Source: Vulcanimicrobiota bacterium (lineage in GTDB: Bacteria; Vulcanimicrobiota; Vulcanimicrobiia; Vulcanimicrobiales; Vulcanimicrobiaceae). Taken from it: a DNA stretch of 64,000 nucleotides. The stretch is from the NCBI GenBank assembly GCA_013036105.1, contig JAAXCX010000005.1, forward strand, positions 1 to 64,000, read 5' to 3'. Under the pieces are notes generated by a model. It worked only from the letters and a program-made list of their open reading frames with translations, made no database searches and was not told the DNA's origin. A program made the position numbers and the translations under genes. Numbering within the stretch: position 1 is the stretch's first letter; each line of letters opens with the position of its first letter. Below are positions 7,905-14,165 of the stretch, one piece after another.

Positions 7905-7933
7905 TTTACAGCGGGGGCGATAGGGGCTATTCT
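7905..7933 (+). promoter_or_regulatory. Predicted speD operon promoter
   Basis: TTTACA (7905-7910), a 17-base spacer and TATTCT (7928-7933) predict a start near 7940, leaving a leader of about 187 bases. Between this and the sufB operator (7800-7904) I see no gene or recognisable site. Confidence 0.5.
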
Positions 7934-7938
7934 TTTTT

Positions 7939-8126
7939 CGAGCTCTTTTTAAGGAAGAGCTCGCGGTCATGGGAGGCGCGCCCTTACGCGCCATCGCGGC
8001 GAGCCGCACGCGCACCGAAAAAGCGCCGGCAAGAGCTCGCCGATAGGTCGGGGACGTGGCTGCACTGCAGGCGCCAGCCGGCAAGTCCGGAGGTGGGATT
8101 CCCACAAGTCGAGGAGAGCGCAAGAA
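7939..8126 (+). promoter_or_regulatory. Structured 5' leader of speD with competing helices
   Basis: The predicted transcript opens with a perfect 9-bp hairpin: cgagctctt (7939-7947) with aagagctcg (7955-7963). An identical aagagctcg recurs at 8031-8039, so the first arm can pair with either copy, though the second copy can also sit in a small cggc/gccg hairpin (8027-8030 with 8039-8042). A further hairpin gtggg/cccac (8093-8097 with 8101-8105) lies just before the speD ribosome-binding site GAGGAGAG (8111-8118). A short upstream ORF spans the second aagagctcg copy. This layout is what a translational attenuator would look like. I recognise no known riboswitch class; the proposal is inference. 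Confidence 0.45.
7969..8046 (+). CDS. Possible arginine-rich leader peptide of the speD operon
   Basis: A 25-codon ORF from ATG to TAG inside the speD leader. Arginine occurs at positions 7, 13, 15, 22, 24 and 25, so three of the last four codons are Arg. AAGGA (7951-7955) lies 13 bases upstream, which is a long spacing. Codons 21-25 cover the second aagagctcg element, so a ribosome stalled at the end would mask it. It could be a chance ORF; high GC favours Arg codons. Leader peptides that sense precursors are known for polyamine genes elsewhere (speF in enterobacteria). Confidence 0.3.
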   Translation: MGGAPLRAIAASRTRTEKAPARARR

Positions 8127-8540
8127 TTGAAAGCACTCGGTACGCACATTGTGTGCGAACTCTCGGGGTGTGACCCGACGGCCCTTTCGGACGTAGACGG
8201 CGTCCAGGCAATGATGGTCGCCGCCGCGCGAGCGGCAAACGCGACCATAATCGAGAGCTCCTTTCACCGCTTCGAGCCGCAAGGCGTGTCGGGGACGGTT
8301 ATTCTTGCTGAATCGCATCTCTCGATTCACACCTGGCCTGAAAAGAAATATGCCGCCATGGATTTTTACACGTGCGGCGATCACACGGAACCGTGGCTCG
8401 CGTGTTTACACGCAGCCAAAGTACTCTCCGCAAAGCGAATGCTGACCACCGAATTCAAACGGGGCATCGAAGCAAAGAACGGAACCTTCACGCACGTCGT
8501 AACGGCAACCGAAGCAAAAGATCGACCGCGAACCGCCTAA
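8127..8540 (+). CDS. speD: S-adenosylmethionine decarboxylase proenzyme, class 1B
   Basis: This 137-residue proenzyme makes decarboxylated AdoMet, the aminopropyl donor for spermidine. It self-cleaves between Glu62 and Ser63 in the AESHLSIHTW motif, turning Ser63 into the pyruvoyl cofactor; His68 and Cys83 are also in place, at the same positions as in the Thermotoga enzyme. TTG start, supported by GAGGAGAG eight bases upstream. It leads a run with speE, a thioesterase and the gcv genes, and is preceded by a long structured leader. It is full length for the prokaryotic class. Confidence 0.95.
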   Translation: MKALGTHIVCELSGCDPTALSDVDGVQAMMVAAARAANATIIESSFHRFEPQGVSGTVILAESHLSIHTWPEKKYAAMDFYTCGDHTEPWLACLHAAKVLSAKRMLTTEFKRGIEAKNGTFTHVVTATEAKDRPRTA

Positions 8541-8564
8541 CCCGCGGTTTTTATTTCGTAAGCG

Positions 8565-9452
8565 ATGCCGAAGACCGAACGTTGGCAGTGGTATGTCGAG
8601 CAGTTCTCTCCCACTGAAGAGCACCACCACGCCGTAGACCGCGTCTATTATCAAGGGCATTCGCAATTCCAAGAGATCGGCATCGTCGGAACACGCGTCT
8701 TCGGGAAGATGCTCATTCTTGACGGCGACACGCAAAGCTCTCAAGCGGATGAAAAGATCTATCATGAGGCGCTGGTTCATCCGGCGATGGCCGGCGCCGG
8801 CGATCGCGCCGATGTCCTGATCCTCGGCGGCGGCGAGGGCGCGACGCTCCGCGAAGTTTTACGTCATCCGGATGTACGCCGTGCGACGATGGTCGACATC
8901 GACGGAGACGTCGTCGAACTTTCAAAAACGTACTTGGCCGAGTGGTCGCAGGAAAGCTTCAACGATCCCAAAGCTCGCGTCATCATCGGTGACGCGCTCA
9001 AGTTTTTAGCCGAAGACGACGATCGCTACGGGGTCATCATATCGGACCTGACCGAACCCCTCGAGGATTCTCCGAGTAATCCACTCTTTTGCGACGAGGT
9101 TTTTCGCAATATCAAAAACCGGCTCGCACCGGGCGGAATCTACGTCTTGCAAGCGAGCACGGCCGGATTCCACAATCTGTCGTTGCACGCGAAGATGGCG
9201 CGCACGCTGCGAAATTACTACGAGCACGTCGTCTCGTATTACACACACGTCCCGGCCTTTGACAACGACTGGGCATTCATCGCATGCAGCGATGGGGTGA
9301 ACCTCGCCCACCTCGACGAGCCGGAAATCGCGCCGTACTGCCGCGAACTGCGCGGCGAGAATTTCTTCTACGACGCGGAGACGCACCGCAGGATATTCGC
9401 GCTGCCGCTCTATCTGCGGCGCGCGCTCGCCGAATCCGGAGAGACGTTTTGA
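8565..9452 (+). CDS. speE: Spermidine synthase (polyamine aminopropyltransferase)
   Basis: A 295-residue aminopropyltransferase that joins putrescine and decarboxylated AdoMet, releasing methylthioadenosine. The Rossmann nucleotide loop LGGGEGATLRE (about 87-97) and the catalytic Asp161 in ISDLTEPL are present, after an N-terminal beta domain with YHEALVHPAM. It lies 24 bases after speD. Its by-product would be handled by the MTA phosphorylase encoded near 41 kb. The aminopropyl acceptor could be putrescine or agmatine; sequence alone does not decide. Confidence 0.94.
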   Translation: MPKTERWQWYVEQFSPTEEHHHAVDRVYYQGHSQFQEIGIVGTRVFGKMLILDGDTQSSQADEKIYHEALVHPAMAGAGDRADVLILGGGEGATLREVLRHPDVRRATMVDIDGDVVELSKTYLAEWSQESFNDPKARVIIGDALKFLAEDDDRYGVIISDLTEPLEDSPSNPLFCDEVFRNIKNRLAPGGIYVLQASTAGFHNLSLHAKMARTLRNYYEHVVSYYTHVPAFDNDWAFIACSDGVNLAHLDEPEIAPYCRELRGENFFYDAETHRRIFALPLYLRRALAESGETF

Positions 9453-9457
9453 GCTCC

Positions 9458-9886
9458 ATGGATCAAGAATCGGTGCGGCGCCAATGGGATAAGGAGCGCT
9501 CGCACTTCGTCGAGCTGCTCGACTTAAAATTGGACAGCGTCGGCAAGGGAACGGCGATCATGCGCATGCCGTACCGGTCGCAGATATCCAACGGAACGGG
9601 CGCCGTCCACGGCGGAGCGATCGTGAGCCTATGCGATACGGTTTTTTACGTGGCGCTCGCATCGCTCTACGGGCGCGACCAAGATACGACCACGGCTTCA
9701 CTGCAGTGCAATTTTCTGGCGCCGGCGGTGGGTCCGGAGGATCTGGTGGCGGAAGCCACCGTGCTGCGAGCCGGGCGGCGGATCTGCTACGGCGAAGTCA
9801 CGGTGCGCTGCGGCGACAAAGTGGTGGCGCACTCCACACTCAACTACTTAAACACGTACCCCAGCGAGAAACCGCCAAAAAAATGA
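9458..9886 (+). CDS. PaaI-type hotdog thioesterase
   Basis: A 142-residue hotdog-fold acyl-CoA thioesterase. The active-site loop NGTGAVHGGAIVSLCD (about 45-60), with the conserved HGG and following Asp, is typical of the PaaI/YdiI group. The ATG five bases after the speE stop is chosen; a TTG nine bases earlier overlaps that stop and is an alternative. Its stop overlaps the gcvT start in ATGA. Its place between speE and gcvT is unusual and does not explain itself; a housekeeping role removing stray acyl-CoA is possible. Confidence 0.85.
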   Translation: MDQESVRRQWDKERSHFVELLDLKLDSVGKGTAIMRMPYRSQISNGTGAVHGGAIVSLCDTVFYVALASLYGRDQDTTTASLQCNFLAPAVGPEDLVAEATVLRAGRRICYGEVTVRCGDKVVAHSTLNYLNTYPSEKPPKK

Positions 9887-10986
9887 AGCAAACCGCACTT
9901 TACGACGAGCACGTGAAACTGCGCGCCCGGCTGATTCCATTCGGCGGCTTCGACATGCCCGTCCAGTACCAAAGCATTTTGCAGGAACACGAAGCGGTGC
10001 GCAAAGCGGCCGGCCTTTTCGACCTTTCGCACATGGGGCAGTTCATTTTGGAAGGCGACGGCGTGGCCGAATGGGCTGACGGGATGACGGTCAACGCCGT
10101 TCCGACAATGAAACCATGGCAAGCGCGCTACAATATTTTTACCAACGAACGCGGCGGCGCGCACGACGACGTGATTTTCTACCGCCTGCCAGACCGCTGG
10201 CTGCTGGTCGTCAATGCCGGCAATGCCGACAAGATGTGGAAGATTCTCAACGACAACGTGGGCGGCTCGGGCGTGAAGATGACGTCGCTGCACGGACGCA
10301 ACGCGCTGATCGCGATTCAGGGACCGCGCTCCGTCGCCATGCTGCAGCCCCATTGCGACGCCGATTTGAACGGGCTCAAATATTATTTTTGTACCGAAGG
10401 CAAAGTTTACGGGAAGAAAGCGGTTATCGCGCGGACCGGATACACGGGAGAAGACGGCTTTGAACTTTTCGTCGATGGGGCAGACGCGCCCGAGATCTGG
10501 TCGAAACTTTTGGCCGATAATGCCGGCGGTGGCCTGATTCCGGCGGGTTTGGGAGCGCGCGACGTTTTGCGTTTGGAAGCGGGGATGCCGCTCTACGGAC
10601 ACGAGCTCACCGAAGAGATCACGCCGCTGCAAGCCGGCTTGGGTTGGGTTATCAAGATGAATAAGCCGGAGTTTCTCGGGAAAGCCGCCTTGGAAGATCA
10701 GCAGAGCCTCGACGACTACCCGCGCATCGTGGGGATCGTCATGGACGGCCGCGCGCTCGCGCGCGAAGGCTATCACGTTTTTCTGGGCGAGAAGCGCGTG
10801 GGCGAGATCCGCAGCGGATCCGTAGGTCCGTCGGTCGGCAACAAGAGCATCGGAACGGCGCTGGTCGACAAGGAAGCCGCAACTCCCGGCACGGACGTAG
10901 TGGTTCACATTCGCGGGACCGCCTACGGCGCCAAAGTCGTAGAGCTTCCATTTTACAAGAGGAGTTACAAGATTGGCGCAGCCTGA
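9883..10986 (+). CDS. gcvT: Glycine cleavage system T protein (aminomethyltransferase)
   Basis: A 367-residue aminomethyltransferase that moves the methylene carbon from H-protein to tetrahydrofolate and frees ammonia. Family signatures include the N-terminal IPFGGFDMPVQY, FDLSHMGQ, RTGYTGEDGFE and GARDVLRLEAGMPLYGHEL, with the C-terminal barrel after about residue 280. The ATG overlaps the thioesterase stop; a longer in-frame reading upstream would run through the thioesterase gene and is rejected. It overlaps gcvH by 14 bases. Confidence 0.96.
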   Translation: MKQTALYDEHVKLRARLIPFGGFDMPVQYQSILQEHEAVRKAAGLFDLSHMGQFILEGDGVAEWADGMTVNAVPTMKPWQARYNIFTNERGGAHDDVIFYRLPDRWLLVVNAGNADKMWKILNDNVGGSGVKMTSLHGRNALIAIQGPRSVAMLQPHCDADLNGLKYYFCTEGKVYGKKAVIARTGYTGEDGFELFVDGADAPEIWSKLLADNAGGGLIPAGLGARDVLRLEAGMPLYGHELTEEITPLQAGLGWVIKMNKPEFLGKAALEDQQSLDDYPRIVGIVMDGRALAREGYHVFLGEKRVGEIRSGSVGPSVGNKSIGTALVDKEAATPGTDVVVHIRGTAYGAKVVELPFYKRSYKIGAA

Positions 10987-11356
10987 AGGCCTGCTCTACA
11001 GCAAAGAGCACGAATGGGTGAAGATCGAGGGCGATAACGCGACGGTCGGGATCACCAACTACGCTCAAGATTCGCTGGGCGACATCGTCTATGTCGAACT
11101 GCCCAAAGCCGGCAAACAGATCGCCCAATTCGCGGCGGTCGGCGTTGTGGAATCGGTGAAAGCCGTATCGGATCTGTTCACGCCCGTCGGCGGCGAAGTA
11201 ACCGAGATCAATACTGGGCTCGAAAACGATCCGGCGCTGGTCAACCGCGAGCCGTTCGAAGGCGGGTGGCTCTTTAAAGTGAAGCTCGCGGGCGACGCGC
11301 AAACGTCGGGGCTGATGTCGGCCGCCGACTACGAGAATTTTACCAAAGAAAGCTAA
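10973..11356 (+). CDS. gcvH: Glycine cleavage system H protein
   Basis: A 127-residue lipoyl carrier protein that shuttles the aminomethyl group between P, T and L proteins. The lipoylated lysine is Lys63 in VVESVKAVSD; the family ending with ENF is present. TTG start, supported by AAGAGGAG seven bases upstream, overlapping the end of gcvT. Lipoylation would depend on the lipB and lipA genes at 53-54 kb. Confidence 0.97.
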   Translation: MAQPEGLLYSKEHEWVKIEGDNATVGITNYAQDSLGDIVYVELPKAGKQIAQFAAVGVVESVKAVSDLFTPVGGEVTEINTGLENDPALVNREPFEGGWLFKVKLAGDAQTSGLMSAADYENFTKES

Positions 11357-11359
11357 CCC

Positions 11360-12721
11360 TTGTACACGCCCCATACCGAGCGCGACGTCGCGCAGATGCT
11401 GAAAACCGTCGGCGTCGATTCGCTCGACGCGCTGCTGCGCGTTCCCGATGCGGTGAAGCTGCGCGAAAAGCTCGAGGTCGTTCCAGCGCTCCCGGAAACC
11501 GGAATCGTGAGCCGCTTCGAAGAGCTTGCGCGCATGAATCCGGGCGCTTCGCTCGTTTCGTTCCTGGGCGCGGGCAGCTACCGGCACTACGCTCCGCCGG
11601 CGATTAGCGCGCTTGCGATGAGGGGCGAATTTCTCACCGCATATACGCCCTATCAGGCCGAAGTGTCGCAAGGCTATCTGCAAGCGATTTACGAGTGGCA
11701 GACCTACATCTGTTTGCTGACCGGAATGGACATCGCCAACGCGTCGGTCTATGACGGCGCGACCGCGCTGGCCGAAGCTGCGATTATGGCACTCAATGAA
11801 AACGGGCGCCAGAAAATCCTCGTGTCGCGCGCGATTCATCCAAACTACCGCGCGGTTCTGAAAACGTACTGCGACGGCTTGGACGTGGCGATCGAAGAGC
11901 TGCCGGTCGCGGAGGACGGCACGACCGGCCTCGGCGAGCTGGCGCGTTTGGCCGCGACCAAAGAGTACGCGTGCGTCGCACTGCAGTCGCCGAATTTTTT
12001 CGGCGTCATCGATACGCCCGGTTCGGCCGAACAAGCCGCGTTAAAAGAGAGCGGCACCGTCTTGGTGGCGGTGATCGCTGAAGCGATGTCGCTCGGCGCG
12101 CTGCAGCCGCCCTCGCAATGGGGCGCCGGCATCGTCGCCGGCGAGGCGCAGAGCTTTGGCGTGCCGGTGGCGTACGGCGGTCCGTACGTCGGCTTTATCG
12201 CGGCGACGAAAGAGCATCTGCGCCGTATTCCGGGACGCCTCGCCGGTAAAACGGTCGATTCAAACGGCAAAGAAGGCTACGTTCTGACGCTGCAAGCGCG
12301 CGAGCAACACATTCGCAGAGAACGAGCGACTTCCAACATTTGCACGAATCAAGCGCATTGCGCGCTGATTGCCACGATGTATTTGGCGCTCGTTGGAAAG
12401 ACCGGTCTGCGCGACGCCGCGGCATTAAACGTGCAGCGCACGCGCGAACTGGCGGCAGCGGTCGACGCAATTGACGGCTGTTCGCTGAAGTTTTCCGCGC
12501 CGCATTTCAACGAAATCGTCGTCTGCGTGCATCAGCCCGCGCGACACGCGCTGGCCAAGCTCGAGCATCGCGGCATTTTGGGCGGCGTCGATCTCGGGCG
12601 TTACTACCCCGAGTACGACAATTGCATCCTGATGGCGGCTACGGAAATGACGACGACGCGAGAGATTCAAGCGCTGACCAAGGCTCTGCACGAGGTGGTA
12701 CATGTCCACGCCCGTGTCTGA
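11360..12721 (+). CDS. gcvPA: Glycine dehydrogenase (decarboxylating) subunit 1
   Basis: This 453-residue protein is the N-terminal half of the two-subunit glycine decarboxylase. Typical motifs are FLGAGSYRHYAPP (about 69-81), the AYTPYQAEVSQG region and QAREQHIRRERATSNICTNQA (about 313-333). It pairs with subunit 2, which carries the pyridoxal phosphate lysine. TTG start three bases after gcvH; it overlaps subunit 2 by 20 bases. The split form is the usual one outside proteobacteria and eukaryotes. Confidence 0.96.
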   Translation: MYTPHTERDVAQMLKTVGVDSLDALLRVPDAVKLREKLEVVPALPETGIVSRFEELARMNPGASLVSFLGAGSYRHYAPPAISALAMRGEFLTAYTPYQAEVSQGYLQAIYEWQTYICLLTGMDIANASVYDGATALAEAAIMALNENGRQKILVSRAIHPNYRAVLKTYCDGLDVAIEELPVAEDGTTGLGELARLAATKEYACVALQSPNFFGVIDTPGSAEQAALKESGTVLVAVIAEAMSLGALQPPSQWGAGIVAGEAQSFGVPVAYGGPYVGFIAATKEHLRRIPGRLAGKTVDSNGKEGYVLTLQAREQHIRRERATSNICTNQAHCALIATMYLALVGKTGLRDAAALNVQRTRELAAAVDAIDGCSLKFSAPHFNEIVVCVHQPARHALAKLEHRGILGGVDLGRYYPEYDNCILMAATEMTTTREIQALTKALHEVVHVHARV

Positions 12722-14165
12722 CCATACCGCCTCGCCGCTCATCTTCGAATCCGGTCAAGACGGCCGGGCCAACCGTTATTTCGAACGCGGAAAGAATCTG
12801 AGCGAATTCTTACCGCGCGAAACGTTGCGCGCGGATCTACCGATTCCGGACAATAGCGAAATGGACGTGGTGCGGCATTTCACGCGCCTATCGCAGCGCA
12901 CGTTCGGCATCGACGTTGGATTTTATCCGCTCGGCTCGTGCACGATGAAATATAATCCGCGGGTCAACGATGCGATGGCGAACCTGCCCGGCCTGCGTGA
13001 CCTGCATCCGTACACTCCCGACGATCAGGCGCAAGGTGCGCTGCGAATCATGTGGGAGCTCGAGCGCAGCCTGTGCTCGCTCTTCGGCATGGCGGCATTT
13101 TCACTCAATCCGTCGGCGGGCGCGCATGCCGAGCTGGCGGCGCTGCTGATCGCCAAGGCGTATTTCAAGAGCCGCGACGAGAGCAAGCGCGACAAAGTGA
13201 TCGTTCCGGACACGGCGCACGGCACGAATCCGGCTTCAGCGGCAATGTGCGGTTTCAAAGTTATCTCGCTGAAGAGCGACAAGCGCGGGCGCGTAAGCGT
13301 CGACGAAGTCAAGAAAGTGCTCGGCGACGATACTGCCGTCGTCATGATGACCAACCCCAACACGCTCGGCCTCTTCGAAGATCACGTTCACGAGATCACG
13401 CGCGCGGTTCACGAAGCCGGCGGCCTCTGCTATTACGACGGCGCGAACGCCAACGCGCTGATGGGCAATGCGCGGCCGGGCGATATGGGCTTCGATCTCA
13501 TGCATCTCAACCTGCACAAGACCTTTACGATTCCGCACGGCGGCGGCGGCGCCGGATCGGGTCCGCTGGGCGTGGCGAAGCATTTGGTTGATTTCTTGCC
13601 GACGCCATACGTCCGGAAAAAAAACGACTCGTTCGTTCTCGACTTCGATATGCCGAAAAGCATCGGTCCGATGCGGTCGTTCTGGTCGAACTTCGCGCAC
13701 ATCGTACGCGCGCTGGCTTACGTGTACGCCAACGGCGCCGAGGGCCTGACGAAAGTCTCGCAACTCGCCGTTCTCAATGCGAACTACCTGCGCGTGAAAA
13801 TTCGCGAGTTCTTGGAGACGCCGTATGACGAGATTTGCCGGCACGAGTTTGTGGCGTCGGCGCAAGCGTTGAAGAAAGAGACCGGCGTGCGGGCGCTCGA
13901 CATCGCCAAGGCGCTGCTCGACCGCGGTTACATGGCGCCGACGATGTATTTCCCGCTGATCGTTCCCGAATGCCTGATGATCGAGCCGACCGAAACCGAA
14001 TCGAAGGAAACGCTCGATGCATTCGTGGACGCGCTTGGGGACATCGTCGAAACGGCGAAGCGCGAACCGGAGAAAATTTTGGCGGCGCCGGTTACGACGG
14101 TCGTCGGACGTCTCGACGAGACGCGCGCCGCCCGCGAACCCGATCTACGGTGGTACCCGAGCTAG
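12702..14165 (+). CDS. gcvPB: Glycine dehydrogenase (decarboxylating) subunit 2
   Basis: A 487-residue pyridoxal-phosphate subunit of glycine decarboxylase. The Schiff-base lysine is Lys273 in LHKTFTIPHGGGG; GSCTMKYNPR (about 79-88) and the PDTAHGTNPASA loop are also diagnostic. It closes the speD-speE-thioesterase-gcv run, in which every junction is a short gap or an overlap. Its last 21 bases overlap the end of an opposite-strand membrane protein gene. Confidence 0.96.
   Translation: MSTPVSDHTASPLIFESGQDGRANRYFERGKNLSEFLPRETLRADLPIPDNSEMDVVRHFTRLSQRTFGIDVGFYPLGSCTMKYNPRVNDAMANLPGLRDLHPYTPDDQAQGALRIMWELERSLCSLFGMAAFSLNPSAGAHAELAALLIAKAYFKSRDESKRDKVIVPDTAHGTNPASAAMCGFKVISLKSDKRGRVSVDEVKKVLGDDTAVVMMTNPNTLGLFEDHVHEITRAVHEAGGLCYYDGANANALMGNARPGDMGFDLMHLNLHKTFTIPHGGGGAGSGPLGVAKHLVDFLPTPYVRKKNDSFVLDFDMPKSIGPMRSFWSNFAHIVRALAYVYANGAEGLTKVSQLAVLNANYLRVKIREFLETPYDEICRHEFVASAQALKKETGVRALDIAKALLDRGYMAPTMYFPLIVPECLMIEPTETESKETLDAFVDALGDIVETAKREPEKILAAPVTTVVGRLDETRAAREPDLRWYPS

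Follow-up and report, generated by a model that had tools for sequence, protein, structure and literature searches.

A conserved branched RNA in the leader of the speD-speE polyamine operon of a Vulcanimicrobiota bacterium, a candidate riboswitch-type element

Results

The window analysed here is a stretch of 64,000 nucleotides from a Vulcanimicrobiota bacterium (positions 1 to 64,000 of contig JAAXCX010000005.1, assembly GCA_013036105.1), and it carries on its plus strand a polyamine operon that opens with speD, encoding an S-adenosylmethionine decarboxylase of the B. subtilis type (8127-8540, start codon TTG at 8127; PF02675, TIGR03330), followed by speE, encoding spermidine synthase (8565-9452; PF01564, with TIGR00417 below its cut-off). 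Genes for a 4HBT thioesterase, gcvT, gcvH and both parts of gcvP follow these two in the same direction and with tight spacing, the whole row extending over 8127-14165, and if the transcript from speD to gcvP is shared, glycine cleavage would come under the speD leader too. Upstream of speD there is a promoter-like TTTACA-17-TATTCT (7905-7933, plus strand), from which we predict that the transcript starts near 7940, and a matching arrangement precedes the RNA described below in 70 of 76 relatives. This agrees with the initial annotation, which had placed the start ahead of the leader RNA. The predicted leader then holds, all on the plus strand, a 5'-terminal hairpin that we call P0 (7939-7963), an open reading frame of 25 codons (7969-8046, ATG to TAG), a conserved branched domain (7971-8105) and the Shine-Dalgarno-like GAGGAG of speD (8111-8116). 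The region has a single terminator-like site, on the minus strand at 8026-8043 inside the P3 region of the branched domain, and it probably reflects nothing more than the RNA structure there; a search of the leader on the speD strand found no intrinsic terminator. In the family that bears the RNA (L001-L030) nearly all speD genes start with TTG or GTG, and ATG starts occur in several families outside the class (L051, L054, L055 and others).

The initial annotation had read this leader as a possible attenuator, in which an arginine-rich leader peptide stalls ribosomes and thereby switches competing helices. The ORF and the complementary repeats on which that reading was built are present and can be read directly in the sequence, namely cgagctctt at 7939-7947, aagagctcg at both 7955-7963 and 8031-8039, and the 25-codon ORF with its R-A-R-R ending. 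The first of the two hairpins (arms 7939-7947 and 7955-7963) is also real and beats shuffled sequences in this genome (z -4.7) and on average in relatives (mean -1.95); its sequence is variable, with a hairpin of different sequence at this place in most relatives, and it is separate from the branched domain. However, when the leader was compared among relatives, a check that had been set beforehand as the refutation of the proposal, neither the ORF nor the competing helix was kept. The ATG is found in only 16 of the 76 relatives, and the length of the ORF is not kept even inside the genus, where the homologous frames have 25 codons (L001-L003), 67 codons (L005 and L006) or 30 codons (L007). 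We therefore judge the ORF at 7969-8046 non-functional, and by this comparison it is no conserved leader peptide. The sequence that allows 7939-7947 to pair with 8031-8039 is confined to this genus, and the second repeat overlaps the 3' arm (8036-8042) of a different and covarying helix, P3, the partner of which is 7997-8003. As the initial annotation had itself cautioned, GAGCTC is a palindrome, and in this genus the palindromic GAGCUC contributes to the matching of P0 with P3. Judged from the aligned leaders, then, the alternative pairing is a coincidence at the level of the genus, and we regard a ribosome-stalling leader peptide as extremely improbable. The speF attenuator is a polyamine gene leader that depends on a conserved leader peptide, in contrast to the speD leader here, which has no conserved ORF.

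What is conserved in this leader is a branched RNA fold. We aligned 35 leaders by MAFFT without the use of structure (alignment A1), drew the structure by eye on this alignment, and represented it as a covariance model, R1, with which homologues were recovered without reference to genes; the 77 distinct sequences fitted to R1 form a second alignment, A2. The first element is the hairpin P2 (7975-7992), in which 7975-7980 pairs with 7987-7992 around the loop CCCUUA (99.6% of cells paired, double changes at 4 of 6 pairs). It is followed by P3 (7997-8042; 7997-8003 with 8036-8042), with 98.1% of cells paired and double changes at 6 of 7 pairs, and by P3a inside it (8006-8030; 8006-8007 and 8010-8013 with 8023-8026 and 8029-8030), with 95.5% paired and double changes at 6 of 7 pairs; a conserved internal loop AAGAG (8031-8035) lies on the 3' side of P3a. 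P4 (8047-8082) joins 8047-8051 to 8078-8082 and approximately 8053-8056 to 8072-8075, and contains P4a (8060-8063 with 8067-8070, double changes at 4 of 4 pairs), with 97-99.7% of cells paired over P4 and P4a. Strongly conserved unpaired stretches link P2, P3/P3a and P4/P4a and lead into GGAGGUGGGAU (8089-8099), which is invariant in A1, lies 38 nt before the speD start and forms the core of speD leaders across most of the phylum. Of the 66 unpaired positions of the domain, 27 reach a conservation of 95% or more, and these are spread over several joints and loops.

The six helices are paired in 96.4% of cells in A1, compared with 28-43% in slid controls, and changes on both sides were found in 17 of 35 pairs. 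The corresponding values in A2 are 96.2% of cells paired against 28-46% in slid controls and changes on both sides in 27 of 35 pairs. Double-change cells number 179, compared with 50 in shuffles, although the A2 counts lean towards the structure because the sequences were fitted to the model. The arms of P3 illustrate the extent of these changes, being CGGCGAG/CUCGCCG in this window, CUGCAG/CUGCAG in L013 and CGGAACG/CGUUCCG in L034. Summed over A2, about 165 cells hold G-U pairs on the speD strand that the opposite strand would turn into C-A mismatches, which identifies the sense strand as the RNA, and the one-base insertions and deletions and paired substitutions among the family leaders indicate an RNA and not a coding sequence. 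Taken as a whole, the leader has an ordinary free energy (z -1.0); the case for structure made by these alignments is one of covariation and not of stability. An analysis of mutual information pointed to no clear tertiary pair besides the known helices; it did show an exchange of G-A, C-G and A-U in upper P4.

Near the 3' end of the domain is a UCCC strand (8100-8103), a candidate partner of either 7971-7974 (P1) or 8089-8093 (a local pairing within the core). In folding of the family leaders this YCCC strand favours the local core (~0.43) over P1 (~0.10), and it pairs with the Shine-Dalgarno sequence with a probability of only ~0.01, the latter being ~60% open; sequestration of the Shine-Dalgarno sequence by this strand is thus unsupported. 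The P1 closing helix has no signal beyond composition, with 410 of 500 shuffles, in which partners were shuffled among species, as good as the real pairs. Closure of the Shine-Dalgarno sequence in the leaders of family f3 was likewise not clearly above shuffles.

We found that the RNA is closely tied to speD. SpeD homologues are present in 54 of 60 relatives, and comparison of their upstream regions in gene orientation showed that within the family approximately 135 bases of leader are kept and that the DNA farther upstream has diverged. R1 matches its own genome at E 2.8e-31 and 85 of 99 family genomes (53 of the 55 good ones). When 149 phylum genomes were searched, the only clear matches outside the family came from two of four sister-family genomes, and four further matches were weak (E ~0.05). 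There is one RNA copy per genome, except in G025, which has two RNAs and two speD copies. Twelve of the 14 family genomes that lack the RNA are listed without an AdoMet_dc (speD) match; in G036 speD is limited to a truncated copy at the end of a contig, and the remaining one, G098, lay outside the speD comparison. By tblastn speD is immediately downstream at all 30 RNA loci tested, and in G038 the RNA copy at a contig end runs into the speD start. The close relative G002, the genome of which is 7% contaminated, carries another speD at the end of a contig (C8:150179-150556, 68% identical to the query) with its upstream region unassembled. Among the 149 phylum genomes, above weak scores, we found no second target gene for the branched RNA, and a search for a viral copy of a 23-nt family-conserved segment found none. 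It might be argued that the element, which can be searched for as a unit, is an independent small RNA, or an antisense element, and stands before speD by chance. We consider this very unlikely, as the RNA ends 20-30 nt from speD in the aligned family loci with no terminator-like site between them on the speD strand, no copies lie elsewhere in those genomes above weak scores, and the G-U pairs speak for the speD strand.

Most other families of the phylum lack the large domain and have instead a short core, GGAGGUGRRAU, 37-83 nt before speD and usually followed by YUCC. This core is kept in leaders of families f2-f16 (for example L039, L051, L054 and L131), and in several families AAAUAAAUC stands before it and AAAGGGGUGGCUUGCC after it, followed by ATG. 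Departures of one base in GGAGG occur in L052, L126 and L130, and several f3 leaders are one or two bases off in GUGRRAU; nothing core-like was found in the speD leader of L136, and L139 gave a poor match only. The short segment suffices in most of these families, and a hairpin of ~15 nt would be expected of a protein or ribosome site more than of an aptamer; both points could mean that a regulatory protein, or SpeD itself, binds the structured leader, with no metabolite involved. A conserved structure tied to one gene would suit this equally, yet the high conservation of 27 of the 66 unpaired positions over a fold of 135 nt exceeds what most protein sites need, and we consider a protein site unlikely.

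GGAGGUG is complementary to the 3' end of 16S rRNA. The core is a perfect Shine-Dalgarno-like string, but one without an obvious start codon in range, and the usual Shine-Dalgarno sequence of speD is a separate element. All 35 leaders of A1 have GGAGGUG unchanged, and it is found again in most other families of the phylum at variable spacing to the start, all of which is consistent with a 30S standby or decoy site that the branched domain presents or hides, setting the translation of speD; in a variant of this explanation it would perhaps be polyamines acting on the ribosome that modulate speD translation. The large family domain is more elaborate than such control requires, however, and we hold it to be a decidedly unlikely explanation.

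Discussion

The presence of a conserved structured RNA at the head of a polyamine operon makes cis-regulation likely, and in this respect the proposal of the initial annotation stands, without its attenuation through an arginine-rich ORF. With somewhat more weight for than against, we suggest that 7971-8105 acts in cis as a leader RNA of speD-speE and that it most likely senses a metabolite of the polyamine pathway in the manner of a riboswitch. As in riboswitches, a metabolic gene has a covarying structure in its 5' leader, and the highly conserved unpaired nucleotides provide a candidate binding core; together with the position in the leader and the exclusive association with speD these fit a riboswitch. 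A single gene association cannot name the ligand, and a protein-binding leader would look alike. In the mechanism that we propose, the promoter at 7905-7933 would transcribe a leader carrying the branched domain, the core of which may bind spermidine or another polyamine, decarboxylated SAM, SAM or MTA. Binding would then alter the way in which the GGAGGUGGGAUUYCCC segment is held, with a consequent change in the translation of speD-speE; we propose translation as the output because no intrinsic terminator was found on the speD strand.

No catalogued RNA family matches this RNA. Rfam 15 gave no family at or above its gathering threshold in the whole window, and at permissive thresholds the leader and its relatives gave unrelated weak matches or none. 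SAM-family models did not match this leader (E up to 5) or that of the relative L012 (E up to 3). The SAM-I riboswitch (RF00162) is similar in that its ligand, SAM, is the substrate of SpeD; its model had no match in the whole genome, and the same search was positive in B. subtilis. No description of this RNA was found in the open literature, supplements aside, and an unpublished or subscription-only description is possible. Previous work has described a spermidine riboswitch as a four-stem variant of SAM-I from Gram-positive genera that acts as a terminator off-switch, and its authors were not convinced by what had been claimed before as polyamine riboswitches (Salvail et al. 2023, PMC10853860). 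Similar to the RNA here it is a leader RNA before polyamine-synthesis genes that include speD and speE, but the RNA here has another architecture, with no SAM-I four-stem aptamer and no terminator-like site on its strand. The odc1 motif (uORF-25-1) is an alpha-proteobacterial hairpin and pseudoknot with its ribosome-binding site inside P1 and a conserved uORF of 11 residues, the UUG of which lies two nucleotides before the main UUG (PMC8632094). It resembles the speD leader in being a structured polyamine-gene leader with a UUG start codon and proposed translational control, and differs from it in fold and taxa and in its conserved uORF; an odc1-type UUG before the TTG at 8127 is absent (aagaaTTG).

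We put forward tentatively, at somewhat less than an even chance, that these leaders form an undescribed riboswitch class, so far from one bacterial order, which senses a compound of the polyamine pathway through a fold unrelated to SAM-I and is built on an older GGAGGUGRRAU element retained in speD leaders of the phylum. Polyamines and decarboxylated SAM are hard for RNA to bind selectively, and such a class, if real, would represent a second and independent way for RNA to sense one or the other. The fold is small, well backed by covariation and directly testable in vitro.

The phylum-wide presence of GGAGGUGRRAU suggests that in one lineage a simple leader grew into a large domain, making the speD leader a case for studying the origin of such RNAs. 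R1 had no match in Bacillota-like genomes, a set without a positive control. The leaders of the Bacillota-like L162 and L163 contain the exact GGAGGTGGGAT and that of L178 the near form GGAGGTGAAAA, at -51/-52 before speD; the local sequence around the element differs, and a wider relative of the core in these genomes is possible. With a stricter exact pattern searched in 84,980 species (one genome each) we obtained 7 matches, 5 of them before speD in genomes apparently within the phylum set and 2 in apparently unrelated DNA. The core pattern has 11 sites in 30 genomes, 9 of which are at speD leaders; the other two (G137:C3:34154-34168 and G139:C303:12983-12997) may reflect chance or a second target.
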